A stretch of DNA of 41,790 bases, from the NCBI GenBank assembly GCA_009843865.1, contig VYCQ01000032.1, forward strand, positions 1-41,790. The letters run 5' to 3'. The notes under the pieces are model-generated. The model did not search any database, was not told the origin of the DNA, and saw only the letters and a program-made list of their open reading frames with translations. Origin of the DNA: Acidimicrobiia bacterium (lineage in GTDB: Bacteria; Actinomycetota; Acidimicrobiia; Acidimicrobiales; Bin134). The translations under genes and the position numbers were made by a program. The stretch's first letter is position 1. Every line of letters begins with the position of its first letter. Below are positions 11,576-17,886 of the stretch, in pieces.

Positions 11576-11661
11576 GCTAGCTCGGTCTAGGCCGTTTTAG
11601 ATTTATGTAGGTTGTTTCGGCACAGCGTTTGGTGCTGTGCAAGCTCTATTGTTGTTGCCGT

Positions 11662-12360
11662 ATGACTATGAGGTGGGCTTTGCGGTTAGGCGCATTTGCC
11701 TTGTTGGGTATTTGGATGCTCACCTGGGCCTTAGATGCCCCGCATCGCCCCATTCTTGCTGAGCGTGATGCCATTTTTCAGGCGACGGTACATGTTAGTG
11801 GGATGGCTTGTGACCGTTTTTCTGAGGGTCATGGTTTCGCTGTGGAACCTGAGTTGGTGCTTACCAATGCTCATGTTGTGTCCGGGGTGGATGAAATTAC
11901 GGTGACCACAGCTGCTGGAGGGTCGGCAGCGGGCACTTTGGTGGGGTTCGATCCAAGCCGAGATGTTGCAGCAATTTTGGTGTCTGGTTTGGACTTAACT
12001 CCGGTAAAGCTGGCCAAAAAGATAGCGATGCCAGCCGATGCTGGTGATGTCGTCACATTTGATCAGTCGAACGGTATCAACTTTGCCCCTTTTAGTGTGA
12101 AGCGTAGGATATGGGTATCTGGGCGTGACATTTATGGAGAGCTAGCTCAGAACCGTCAAGTGTTGGAGATCCAATCAGTGTTGGTTACAGGAGATTCTGG
12201 TGCTGGGCTCGTTAATGTGGATGGCGAGTTATGGGGCATGGTGTTTGCGGTGGATCTTGGACAACGCAAACAAGGCTACGCATTAGATGTTGTGGAGATT
12301 TTCGATTTTCTGACTGAGGTTGATTCAACCCCGTTGCCAACGCAGCCTTGTCGTCTTTAG
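11662..12360 (+). CDS. MarP-like membrane-anchored serine protease
   Basis: A single N-terminal membrane helix (about residues 8-24) is followed by a chymotrypsin-fold protease domain outside the membrane. The triad is His71 (LTNAHVV), Asp101 (SRDVAAI) and Ser179 (TGDSGAG). The C-terminal half, with SGRDIYGE, a V-rich strand, GDSG and ELWGMVFAV, resembles the protease domain of mycobacterial MarP (Rv3671c), but the four-helix CvpA-like N-terminal region of MarP is absent. The usual GDSGGP is GDSGAG here, a change beside the oxyanion hole; activity is probable but not certain. The ATG at 11662 (or 11668) fits the signal-anchor better than the upstream TTG at 11629. No strong ribosome site is visible. 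MarP acts in cell-envelope acid stress; the role here is inferred. Confidence 0.8.
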   Translation: MTMRWALRLGAFALLGIWMLTWALDAPHRPILAERDAIFQATVHVSGMACDRFSEGHGFAVEPELVLTNAHVVSGVDEITVTTAAGGSAAGTLVGFDPSRDVAAILVSGLDLTPVKLAKKIAMPADAGDVVTFDQSNGINFAPFSVKRRIWVSGRDIYGELAQNRQVLEIQSVLVTGDSGAGLVNVDGELWGMVFAVDLGQRKQGYALDVVEIFDFLTEVDSTPLPTQPCRL

Positions 12361-12386: not shown

Positions 12387-12950
12387 TTACTGTATGTCGC
12401 GGAGGCGGCGGCTAAAGCTAAATATCATCAGACCTGCTAGTGCAATGCTGCCCCCAATGATGGCTAGCAACCCGGTTTGGTTGCCGGTATCGGCTAGTAG
12501 GTCATCTGTTGTCAGTAGGTTATCTGTTGTTGTCTCGTCGACATTCACTGAGACAGCCGCCATTTCGCCGGTAGCTGACAGTTCAAACATCATGAAGGTA
12601 ACACCAGCATCGGTCACCTCAACAGATTGTGTAGTGGTATAGGTACCGTTTTCCCAGCTTGCTGGATTTATTGGAGTTCCGAAACTGCCACCGCAGTATT
12701 GGGGTACGCCAGCAGTTAGCTCAACAATGTTGGTTCCGATTTCGTTGATGTCGCCTGTATTGCAGATAGCGAAGTTAATGTTTGTGGCTGTGAAACCTGA
12801 AGCGGTAACGGTGATGTCGTAGGTCCCTGGAGCTGGCACTGCTGCTGGGTCGGCGGTTAACGTTTGATCTTGAGCTGAGGCTGTGCCTACAGATGCTAAG
12901 CAGACGAGGGTCAAAGCGGAACCGAGAAAAATCAACTTGGCTTTGGTCAT
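12387..12950 (-). CDS. secreted protein with sortase-type cell-wall sorting signal
   Basis: The 187-residue product has a signal peptide (MTKAK, hydrophobic core, cleavage after TASA at residue 26), a small beta-rich domain (about 27-140, with Cys63 and Cys86 probably disulfide-linked) and a sorting signal: LADTG at 152-156, a hydrophobic helix (160-179) and a basic tail RRLRDIQ. LADTG departs from LPXTG but suits some actinobacterial class E sortases. The opening ADPAAVPAPGTYDITVTASGF resembles the Ig-like neocarzinostatin-type strand pattern; no function can be given. The ATG at 12950 is chosen because AAGGAG lies eight bases upstream; eight more codons are open. No sortase gene is in the window. 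Confidence 0.8.
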   Translation of the reverse strand: MTKAKLIFLGSALTLVCLASVGTASAQDQTLTADPAAVPAPGTYDITVTASGFTATNINFAICNTGDINEIGTNIVELTAGVPQYCGGSFGTPINPASWENGTYTTTQSVEVTDAGVTFMMFELSATGEMAAVSVNVDETTTDNLLTTDDLLADTGNQTGLLAIIGGSIALAGLMIFSFSRRLRDIQ

Positions 12951-13024
12951 GGTTTTGTCTCCTTGGAGCAACATGATTGGCCCCTACATGGATGAATTGT
13001 AGGTAACTGTAATGCCCCTAAGTT

Positions 13025-14575: not shown

Positions 14576-15286
14576 ATGTCTGATCAGCAACTGGAAGAAA
14601 AGGTGCTGCGAATTTGGCAGACTCGGCGTGCTCGCTGGTTGTATGCAGTGTTGCGGGTTGCGATTTTGCTGGTGGGCCGCATCTACTTGAGAACACAGGT
14701 GCAAGGCGCAGAGAAGCTGCGCCTTGGCGGGGCGTTCATCGTTGCGCCTGTGCATCGCTCTAATTTGGATGCTCCATTGGTGAACGCTTGTTGCCCGCGA
14801 ATAGTGCGGTCGTTGGCCAAAAGAGAGATGTTCCCGGGCGGTGTGGGTACGTGGTTTAGTGCCATGTGTGGTTCGTTTCCGATTCGACGAGGTGTCATGG
14901 ATCGTCGTTCGTTGGAGGCAGCTATGGAGCTTTTGCATGGGGGCGAGCCTTTGCTGATATTTCCTGAAGGCACTCGTCAGACTGGGAAACATGTGGGGAA
15001 AATCTTTGGTGGTGCGGGTTATTTGGCATTGCGGGCCAAGGTGCCGATCATCCCTGTTGGCATTGCAGGTACAGAACAGGCCATGCCAGCTAAAGCAAAG
15101 CTGCTGCGTCCCGGGCCGGTATCTATTGTGGTGGGTGAGCCTTTAGTGCCCCCAGAACCTGTTAGCGAGCGGCTCAGCTCAGAGCTGCGGGCTGATTTCA
15201 CCGCCGTGCTGCGTTGCGCTATGCAAGATGTCATGGAACGGGCTTATGTGCAGGCATCAACCCGCAGGGGCTGGCGAGATTTGTAA
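14576..15286 (+). CDS. plsC: 1-acyl-sn-glycerol-3-phosphate acyltransferase
   Basis: This 236-residue membrane-associated acyltransferase adds the second acyl chain to lysophosphatidic acid in phospholipid synthesis. The catalytic NHX4D-type motif is His60-RSNL-Asp65, and the phosphate-binding motif FPEGTR lies at 129-134, with IPVGIAGTE near 155. A hydrophobic stretch at 22-35 may insert into the membrane. Related PlsC-fold proteins include haemolysin-type and phosphatidylinositol mannoside acyltransferases, so the acyl acceptor is inferred. It is the first of a plus-strand group followed by the NodB-fusion lipoprotein. Confidence 0.88.
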   Translation: MSDQQLEEKVLRIWQTRRARWLYAVLRVAILLVGRIYLRTQVQGAEKLRLGGAFIVAPVHRSNLDAPLVNACCPRIVRSLAKREMFPGGVGTWFSAMCGSFPIRRGVMDRRSLEAAMELLHGGEPLLIFPEGTRQTGKHVGKIFGGAGYLALRAKVPIIPVGIAGTEQAMPAKAKLLRPGPVSIVVGEPLVPPEPVSERLSSELRADFTAVLRCAMQDVMERAYVQASTRRGWRDL

Positions 15287-15299
15287 AATTGGTGTGCTT

Positions 15300-17036
15300 G
15301 TGCGTGAGGTTAAGGTTGTCAAGATTGTAGCTGCTCTTTTAACAGCAGGGTTGTTGGCAGCTAGCGGATGTGTCGACGACTCTGAGGTAGGCCAACCCTT
15401 GTTGACTCAGTTGGTAGATGGTGCGGGTTGGCCTACTCTAGTTAGTCCAACAGAGTCTTCGCTTGCTACTGCGATCAGCACACCTCAAGTAGGACTGGAA
15501 ATAGAAGCAGCACCGGAAATATCTGAAGAGGTATTCGAAGAGACAAAGGTGTCGGGTGGGGATTTTGCAGACCCATTGACCGAGGAGCTTCATTTCGCGT
15601 TGGCTGAGGAGCTTCAAACATTGGCGGAGATGGCTAGTTCTTGGAATCCAGATGTGCGTGTCTCAATTACTGTGGAGTTGTCTGATGGGTTCCGACACGG
15701 TTTGTCCCCGCAGGAAAGTCACAATTCGGCTAGCGCTACGAAGTCGTTGTGGGCGGCTGCGGCCTTAGATGTTGTGGGGTTGGAAGCAGCTCAGTCGTTG
15801 AGTTATGCGGCTTTGGTTGACTCCCACAATTTGGCTGCTGGTCAGCTCATTGACTTGGCAGGGGGAGTGGATGCAGTCAATGAGTGGGGCCGCAATGTGG
15901 CAAGGTTGCAAGAAACCTATCTAGAGGCTTGGCGATTTGGTGCAGACGACAGGGTTGCCAGCGATTTTAATCCCGATAAACCCCTAGGTAATCGCACTAG
16001 TACTTCTGATCTTGCCAAGTTCTATGCGCGGTTTTATCGGGGTCAACTTTTAGACGCTTCGCTCACAGCGGCATTGCAACAGTGGTTGCGCGACACTCCA
16101 CGTTCGATGGCCACTTCTACTGAGCTTGGCGGGGTTTTGCTGGATCGGTTGCCGCGGGAGGTGGCTGCTGCCTCCCTGCATAAGGGTGGTTGGTTGCCTC
16201 CGGGCTGTTGTTCGATCGAACTTCGGCATATGTTGGACGCTGGGGTGATAGTGCTGCCCGATGGTGAGTGGTTTTCTGTAGCGGTATTGAGCACGCGTGG
16301 GGAGTACTTTGATCAGACCGTTAGGTGGGTGTCGTTAGCGGCATGTCGCCTTTATGTCATCATCGCCAAAGATTTAACCGCAAGTTGCGACAGGCCAGGT
16401 GATGGGGTTCATGATCCCGCAATTTGGTTGCTTAAACCCGATGTTTTAATTGAAAGCCCAACCCAATCTGCTAGCGAACCTGCACCGGTGTTGTATTTTA
16501 CTTTTGACGATGGTCCTGATCCGATTTACACGCCGCAGATTTTAGATGTGTTGAAGCGTTATGGGGTGCAGGCAACCTTTTTCGTGGTGGGTTCGGTGGC
16601 TGCAAGTCAACCTAATCTTTTGCAGCGTATTATGGACGAGGGGCACGCCGTTGCCAATCACACTTGGAATCATGATGACTTAACGAAGCTCACGCGTGCA
16701 GAGTTTGACGAGACCGTTGGGCGTACAGAAACCTTGTTAGGCACTGACGGCGCAAATTGCCTGAGGCCACCTTATGCTTTGTTTAACGAAACCACTCGTT
16801 TGTGGGCTTTGGAACATGGGTTGGAGGTAGTCACGTGGGATTTCAGTCCGAAAGATTGGGAGCCACAGTCGCCCGAAAAGATTGCACGCAAGATCGTGGC
16901 TAACGCTTATAACAACGCGATTCTCTTGCTTCACGATGGTGGTGGAAACCGCTCTTCAACCGTGCTTGGCCTTGAACTGGCTTTAGAAGAGTTATCCCAA
17001 AAAGGTTTTCAATACAACACACTTGACTGTGCTTAA
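15300..17036 (+). CDS. lipoprotein fusing a serine beta-lactamase/PBP-like domain to a NodB polysaccharide deacetylase
   Basis: From the GTG at 15300 the protein has 578 residues. Residues 1-24 form a lipoprotein signal (LLAASGC, Cys24), followed by a Glu-rich linker to about 95. Residues 96-360 look like a class A beta-lactamase/DD-peptidase fold with its three active-site motifs in order: SATK (145-148), SHN (175-177) and KGG (295-297). Residues 396-578 form a NodB deacetylase domain with TFDDGPD (401-407, Asp403/Asp404), the metal histidines of NHTWNH (His454, His458), RPPY (489-492) and LLLHDGG (His545), all apparently intact. It would be tethered outside the membrane, where both domains could act on peptidoglycan. 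An ORF extends upstream into plsC, but the signal peptide fixes the start at 15294 or 15300. Confidence 0.85.
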   Translation: MREVKVVKIVAALLTAGLLAASGCVDDSEVGQPLLTQLVDGAGWPTLVSPTESSLATAISTPQVGLEIEAAPEISEEVFEETKVSGGDFADPLTEELHFALAEELQTLAEMASSWNPDVRVSITVELSDGFRHGLSPQESHNSASATKSLWAAAALDVVGLEAAQSLSYAALVDSHNLAAGQLIDLAGGVDAVNEWGRNVARLQETYLEAWRFGADDRVASDFNPDKPLGNRTSTSDLAKFYARFYRGQLLDASLTAALQQWLRDTPRSMATSTELGGVLLDRLPREVAAASLHKGGWLPPGCCSIELRHMLDAGVIVLPDGEWFSVAVLSTRGEYFDQTVRWVSLAACRLYVIIAKDLTASCDRPGDGVHDPAIWLLKPDVLIESPTQSASEPAPVLYFTFDDGPDPIYTPQILDVLKRYGVQATFFVVGSVAASQPNLLQRIMDEGHAVANHTWNHDDLTKLTRAEFDETVGRTETLLGTDGANCLRPPYALFNETTRLWALEHGLEVVTWDFSPKDWEPQSPEKIARKIVANAYNNAILLLHDGGGNRSSTVLGLELALEELSQKGFQYNTLDCA

Positions 17037-17094: not shown

Positions 17095-17886
17095 GTGTTG
17101 GGTTTACCTCACCCCACGATCGTGCTGTCTTTGGCTAGTGTGTCTGTGTCGTTGATCTCTATTCCTTTTGGATGGGGTAACGAGATGGGTCTTGGTGGGG
17201 CTCAGCAGCTGCTGAGCATTGCTTTCACTGTTTTGGCCATGGCGTATGCGGTTGGAGCAATTTGGGCCATTTTTATGCAATGGCACGGCGACCGTGCTCA
17301 TCCATCGGTACTGATGGGGTCGGCCGCTATAGCAGTGAGCGCTACTGCTCTTCCGTTGTGGTATACTAGTTCTGCTGGTCAGGATGCTCCGCATTCCGCT
17401 TTTTTCATTGTGATTGCTGCAATAGCTATGTTGCTGACCTCTGCTTGTATAACCACTGCTTTGGGCAGGATTGCTGGCGACCGTTATTTGAGCAGTCTTT
17501 CCTCTCCAGAACTCGTTATGTTGGAGCAGCGTTTGCAAGCGTTTCCCCGAACGCTGGAAAGCGCAGCTTTAGACGATATTGCTGATACTTATGATGCTGT
17601 GCGAGAGGGTATTAGGCGCGCGGTGGAAAACGGGACCTGCTCTAGAGATTTCATCCGGACTCAAGTGGGCGAGCTTCGGTCTCTGGCAGATCGAGTGGGT
17701 GTGTCCCCTACTGCAGACGCTATCCGCTCAGAAGCTCGTTTGTTTAAGCGTAAAGCTGGTGGCAGGTTGCGCCAACGTCATGTTTCGGCTGCTCAGTTTA
17801 TTCAGAGGCGTTGCCGTCAGCGTTTTGCAGCTGCGGTGCTGGCTAATAGGCAGTTAAATCGGCCCCAAATGCCCAATACTTCTTGA
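17095..17886 (+). CDS. four-helix membrane protein with basic helical tail, unknown function
   Basis: I do not recognise the family. The N-terminal half contains four hydrophobic helices (about residues 7-25, 38-60, 73-92 and 100-123). The C-terminal half (125-263) looks helical and soluble, with LEQRLQAFPRTLESAALDDIADTYDAVREGIRRAV and then an Arg/Lys-rich end, probably cytoplasmic. GTG at 17095 is used; no convincing ribosome site is visible, and TTG at 17098 is an alternative. It follows the NodB fusion gene by 58 bases in the same direction. Codon use and base composition match the neighbours, which supports a real gene. Confidence 0.65.
   Translation: MLGLPHPTIVLSLASVSVSLISIPFGWGNEMGLGGAQQLLSIAFTVLAMAYAVGAIWAIFMQWHGDRAHPSVLMGSAAIAVSATALPLWYTSSAGQDAPHSAFFIVIAAIAMLLTSACITTALGRIAGDRYLSSLSSPELVMLEQRLQAFPRTLESAALDDIADTYDAVREGIRRAVENGTCSRDFIRTQVGELRSLADRVGVSPTADAIRSEARLFKRKAGGRLRQRHVSAAQFIQRRCRQRFAAAVLANRQLNRPQMPNTS

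Follow-up and report, generated by a model that had tools for sequence, protein, structure and literature searches.

The serine lipoprotein-NodB fusion gene

The window, by which we mean the whole stretch of 41,790 nucleotides of Acidimicrobiia DNA analysed here, carries on its forward strand a gene that joins a serine domain resembling class A beta-lactamases to a NodB/CE4 deacetylase domain. The gene is a single uninterrupted frame of 578 codons that runs from a GTG at 15300 to a TAA at 17036. An alternative in-frame ATG at 15228 overlaps the upstream plsC-like gene; translation from the GTG gives a normal signal peptide with the lipobox LAASG ahead of Cys24, and by inspection the residues KVVKIVAALLTAGLLAASG followed by Cys form the lipobox of a bacterial lipoprotein. 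The features referred to below are as follows.

14576..15286, forward strand: upstream plsC-like acyltransferase, conserved in the genus as the opening gene of the cluster (Pfam, synteny)
15300..17036, forward strand: fused lipoprotein gene P0001, class-A-like serine domain plus NodB/CE4 deacetylase, 578 aa; a second copy lies in genome G004
15300..15371, forward strand: signal peptide and lipobox LLAASG before the predicted lipidated Cys24 (codon 15369-15371), from the sequence and the equivalent lipobox in relatives
15570..16415, forward strand: class-A-beta-lactamase-like (PF13354) serine domain, residues 91-372 (Pfam, profile search, hhalign, 21-row alignment)
15732..15743, forward strand: SxxK as S145-A-T-K148, nucleophile and general base; Ser and Lys invariant, aligned to S70xxK73
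15822..15830, forward strand: S175-H-N177, equivalent of S130-D-N132; Ser and Asn invariant, aligned to SDN
15933..15935, forward strand: Arg212, which follows the omega-loop Trp and occupies the Ambler Glu166 position; the deacylation base is missing (alignment against class A RWEPELN)
16182..16190, forward strand: K295-G-G297, equivalent of K234-T-G236; Lys and Gly invariant, aligned by hhalign
16416..16475, forward strand: short non-conserved linker, the apparent junction of two former genes (comparison with the G004 linker; stop point of unfused relatives)
16476..17024, forward strand: NodB/CE4 deacetylase domain, residues 393-575 (Pfam; solved peptidoglycan GlcNAc deacetylases)
16500..16517, forward strand: CE4 motif 1, TFDDGP, residues 401-406 (sequence, alignment)
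16656..16673, forward strand: CE4 motif 2, NHTWNH, with the metal-binding His residues (sequence, alignment)
16764..16775, forward strand: CE4 motif 3, RPPY (sequence, alignment)
16854..16859, forward strand: core DW of CE4 motif 4, within SPKDW, the first Asp of DxxDW being Ser (alignment)
16929..16943, forward strand: CE4 motif 5, LHDGG, with the catalytic His (sequence, alignment)

The sequence-only reading had described this gene as a lipoprotein that joins a serine domain to a NodB deacetylase, with the active-site motifs of both halves kept. That description stands: the 578-aa frame is intact, the lipobox and both Pfam domains are present, and SATK, SHN and KGG are found together with TFDDGP, NHTWNH, RPPY and LHDGG. 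Serine lipoproteins of the genus that are not fused have comparable lipoboxes, and the corresponding residues of the G004 fusion are LLLLGGC.

In the NodB half, Pfam Polysacc_deac_1 (PF01522) matches residues 393-511 with an E-value of 5.1e-31 and 107.7 bits, against a cut-off of 23.1. The whole CE4 motif set (TFDD, H(S/T)xxH, RPP, DW and the LxH-type motif) was recovered, with Ser for the first Asp of DxxDW in both fusions and in many of the NodB proteins of the cluster. Among solved structures, this half comes closest to peptidoglycan GlcNAc deacetylases (5o6y, E 2.5e-35; SpPgdA 2c1g, E 5.4e-29). These CE4 enzymes, together with 4l1g, are secreted and wall-directed and share motifs 1-3, motif 5 and the DW of motif 4 with the fused domain, from which they differ in the first Asp of DxxDW. 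We know of no CE4 peptidoglycan GlcNAc deacetylase that carries a class-A-like serine domain. BA0330 and BA0331 of Bacillus anthracis are likewise NodB lipoproteins, held on a Gram-positive membrane, but their motifs 4-5 are rearranged, their partner is Fn3 rather than a serine domain, and they are inactive (PMC4505593). In view of the inactivity of these two lipoproteins, we regard catalytic activity of the fused NodB domain as likely rather than certain.

An acylation site without the class A deacylation base

The serine half belongs to the PF13354 family, as Pfam Beta-lactamase2 matches residues 165-330 (E 5.8e-10; 39.3 bits against a cut-off of 22). The SATK motif falls outside this match because about 31 residues that separate SxxK from SDN in class A enzymes are missing from the domain. 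In an alignment of 21 serine-domain homologues (A1), which extends down to about 42% identity, Ser55, Lys58, Ser85, Asn87, Lys205 and Gly207 (domain-alignment numbering) are invariant, and these are the equivalents of the catalytic Ser and Lys, Ser130, Asn132, Lys234 and Gly236. Set against 25 PF13354 proteins taken from the phylum, the A1 profile gave an hhalign probability of 99.4 and an E-value of 5.3e-21, with all three serine motifs in register: SASATK is paired with SASTIK, SHN with SDN, and KGG with KGG or KTG, with one 31-residue gap between the first two. When solved structures were searched with the A1 profile, the matches were class A beta-lactamases, the best at E 4.4e-7, and LRA-5 ranked in the first three; AlphaFold, run on the serine domain alone and without homologues, gave a pLDDT of 37. 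The unfused homologues of the genus carry SDN, whereas the fusions carry SHN (window) and SNN (G004), a departure that may reflect an altered activity of the fused serine domains.

This fold raises the question whether the protein acts on beta-lactams. In a class A motif comparison, the catalytic Ser, Lys, Ser, Asn, Lys and Gly are present and in register, while SHN and KGG deviate from SDN and KTG/KSG. The Ambler 166 position, whose assignment comes from sequence alignment, is occupied by Arg in the cluster of the genus, and in other homologues by Arg, His, Tyr, Ser or Asp; none of the aligned homologues has the Glu that characterizes the class A omega loop. The curated class A model NF033103 scored 36.4 bits, well below its 200-bit cut-off. 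With the acylation residues kept and the Glu166 deacylation machinery missing, we read the serine domain as something other than a beta-lactamase.

Characterized proteins with comparable changes point in the same direction. LRA-5 (8EO5) has likewise kept its acylation residues and lost Glu166, which is Val166; it differs in being a single-domain, distant relative of PER-type enzymes with a full-length helical domain. Despite its class A fold, its beta-lactamase activity is negligible and biologically insignificant, and the same study mentions a putative relative with Arg at position 166 (PMC12777564). Cpe (Orf12) of Streptomyces clavuligerus is also a two-domain protein with a class-A-like part that carries SxxK, SDN and KAG, or KGG in homologues, and its beta-lactamase activity was not detectable (PMC6478378). 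Its partner domain, however, is isomerase/cyclase-like, its role is biosynthetic, and in vitro it is a cephalosporin esterase. Other actinobacterial PF13354 proteins (e.g. at locus L093, in frames of about 580 aa) also have SxxK, SDN and KGG and no evident equivalent of Glu166, but their SxxK-SDN region is about 31 residues longer and the NodB motif is absent from all 29 sampled frames, which were examined at full length.

These comparisons bear on the proposal, made in the sequence-only reading, that the protein confers beta-lactam and lysozyme resistance. Some support for a true class A beta-lactamase in the serine half comes from an NCBIfam class A model (E 3e-9, though at 36 of the 200 cut-off bits) and from the fact that class A enzymes are the closest solved chains by profile. 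Resistance by hydrolysis is nevertheless disfavoured, because the Glu166 position is Arg here and never Glu among homologues, about 31 residues are missing between SxxK and SDN, and KTG is replaced by KGG or KAG; LRA-5 and Cpe, which carry similar changes, have no useful lactamase activity. We therefore consider a true beta-lactamase very unlikely, and the fused gene appears more likely to encode a wall-modifying enzyme than a resistance determinant. These analyses also define a small family of actinobacterial lipoproteins that are class-A-like but lack Glu166, and that automatic annotation may label as beta-lactamases.

Origin and distribution of the fusion

The family was sampled as one genus of 22 genomes, which include that of the window (G000; 1.79 Mb, 98% complete). 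The serine lipoprotein occurs without a NodB fusion in 20 of them, and a second fusion of 642 aa is present in G004; the two are about 62-66% identical per domain and differ in their linkers, that of G004 being much longer and Ser/Gly-rich. Fusion and unfused parents have thus been caught together in one genus. Gene order in the genus is usually plsC, cupin, TAP-like alpha/beta hydrolase, serine lipoprotein, short-chain dehydrogenase (SDR), NodB lipoprotein and a thiolase-like gene. In most unfused genomes NodB is the next or next-but-one gene on the same strand after the serine lipoprotein, usually behind the SDR gene. Some members of the cluster are missing in several genomes, and synteny of the genus loci placed no NodB gene beside the serine lipoprotein in G011 and G016. 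Unfused serine lipoproteins end a few residues past DPEIWPE, and the unfused NodB lipoproteins of the cluster come in two sizes, about 310 aa and, where an FG-GAP-like region is present, about 560 aa; a long N-terminal region with a weak FG-GAP match recurs in the genus, for example at L037 4839-6515 (-) and L058 5946-7697 (-).

Both fusions lack the SDR gene, and their NodB part no longer has a signal peptide of its own. No SDR orthologue was found elsewhere in G000 or G004 (best matches 32% and 41%), nor was one of the TAP-like hydrolase. On their 3' side both fusions share a set of four genes (263-aa membrane protein, cytochrome c, comM and dprA), which begins immediately or two additional genes further on and was not seen at the other loci of the genus. 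The membrane protein gene (window 17095-17886, +), downstream in both fused genomes, has no significant Pfam match.

Phylogenetic trees place the two fused serine domains in one clade (98/94) that is sister to the other 20, and the two fused NodB domains in one clade (100/98) inside a 12-row group of the NodB lipoproteins of about 310 aa. On this evidence the trees support what would be a single fusion event. They disagree on the sister of the fused pair: the NodB tree favours a grouping with G012 and G001 (80/95), and the serine-domain tree rejects (p-AU 0.0097) a placement of the fused serine domains with these two genomes, in which the gene order resembles an intermediate.

The sequence-only reading had also named an assembly error as a possible source of the fusion. 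Although the window genome is a draft in 43 contigs, an assembly or binning artefact is refuted by the same fusion in the independent genome G004, where it recurs with a different linker; furthermore, the frame is continuous and the gene lies deep inside a 154-kb contig. The fusion is real, and the chance that it is an artefact is negligible.

Other arrangements of the cluster were observed in the genus. In G010, an 84% complete draft, a 1036-aa frame (L056 1646-4756, +) comprises plsC, the TAP-like hydrolase and the serine domain; the hydrolase keeps its own lipobox (LIAAGC) and the serine domain is without its signal peptide. In G001 the plsC frame (L055 11-1426, +) runs on uninterrupted into the serine lipoprotein's signal peptide, and the cupin and TAP-like hydrolase genes are absent between the two.

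Beyond the genus, members of the serine family turned up in families f35, f51 and f56; of the 397 genomes in the order, 32 gave a match, in two cases only a marginal one. The loci read from these three families have no NodB fusion and no NodB gene nearby. At one f35 locus (G055, L054 5818-7404, +), three SLH domains precede the serine domain, another mode of holding it to the wall. Across 149 phylum-wide genomes, inspection by eye of the matches listed found PF13354 and PF01522 in one frame in the window gene alone. A scan of viral contigs with both halves returned no relative, and a scan of genome contigs gave NodB relatives only. Among 426 plasmid records from tblastn none covers 80% of the query, and those listed match around the NodB half; a defence-system library gave no match. 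A serine-domain/NodB fusion was not found described in the open-access literature. The pairing of a penicillin-recognising type of acyl-serine domain and a peptidoglycan deacetylase in one protein is an architecture found nowhere else in the collections searched.

A proposed role at the cell wall

Taken together, we consider it probable that the window gene is an inherited fusion of two lipoprotein genes that pairs a wall-acting acyl-serine enzyme, not a beta-lactamase, with a peptidoglycan deacetylase. As the comparison shows, the genes for the serine and NodB lipoproteins were fused in frame in an ancestor common to the window organism and G004, with loss of the SDR gene that usually separates them and of NodB's signal peptide and lipobox. 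A single lipid anchor therefore now holds the two domains at the outer surface of the membrane. The NodB domain would carry out metal-dependent N-deacetylation of peptidoglycan sugars, while the serine domain may form an acyl-enzyme with D-Ala-type peptides or esters of the wall, as a carboxypeptidase, endopeptidase or esterase; for both domains these putative substrates are those suggested by family membership. Tethering would lead both domains to act on the same patch of wall, and it is plausible, as the sequence-only reading suggested, that peptide and glycan modification are coordinated by the two. A parallel is offered by Bdellovibrio, in which the DacB endopeptidases Bd3459/Bd0816 and the GlcNAc deacetylases Bd0468/Bd3279 combine peptide cutting and deacetylation on one wall, although these are separate proteins, the peptidases are of the DacB type and the target is the prey wall.

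The fused gene is the only detected match to PF01522, and the only one to PF13354, in G000. Peptidase_S11 (PBP5-type) is absent from all four genus genomes tested (G000, G004, G007 and G015), while one S13-like protein is present. These observations make a DD-carboxypeptidase or endopeptidase role for the serine domain, suggested by its fold and setting, an attractive one. A more specific proposal is that of a bifunctional, tethered wall editor, in which stem-peptide trimming, filling the missing S11 role, would be coupled to NodB deacetylation on the same peptidoglycan unit; we advance this tentatively and think it rather unlikely. Nothing about the linker, which is not conserved, points to a fixed geometry between the domains. 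Fusions among the members of one cluster are classical evidence for a shared task, and the second, different fusion in G010 suggests that the genes of this cluster work together, which makes the pathway of the cluster testable.

Two further readings keep the fusion as a genuine inherited gene and differ in what it does. The serine domain might be a non-catalytic, wall-binding module that positions the deacetylase, an idea for which there are precedents both in the NodB-fold pseudo-enzymes BA0330/BA0331 (PMC4505593) and in the joining of the serine domain to SLH surface-binding domains in the related family f35. A mere binder, however, would need none of the six acylation-site residues, yet 21 homologues with identities as low as about 42% all keep them unchanged, and we hold this reading unlikely. 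Alternatively, the fusion may be a neutral by-product of genome reduction, with the domains still independent and only the anchor changed. The fused genomes are smaller (1.79 Mb for G000 and 2.2 Mb for G004, versus mostly 3.3-3.8 Mb in relatives) and the fused stretches have a lower GC content (52.6% for the window and 56% for that of G004, versus about 64% in the stretches of two relatives), linker length varies between the fusions, and another in-frame join of neighbours occurs in G010. Against a neutral origin, the two fusions have diverged to about 62-66% identity per domain and the domains are still joined, with neither active site lost; we regard such an origin as a serious possibility, albeit short of probable. 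The fused wall enzyme remains the reading we prefer.

Elsewhere in the window, a small secreted protein (12387-12974, -) ends in LADTG, a hydrophobic stretch and a basic tail, scores 15.0 bits against a cut-off of 15.9 for the LPXTG anchor, and is a possible sortase substrate. About 3 kb upstream of the fused gene, a trypsin-like protease (11629-12360, +) gives a partial match to the MarP model (145 of 250 bits).
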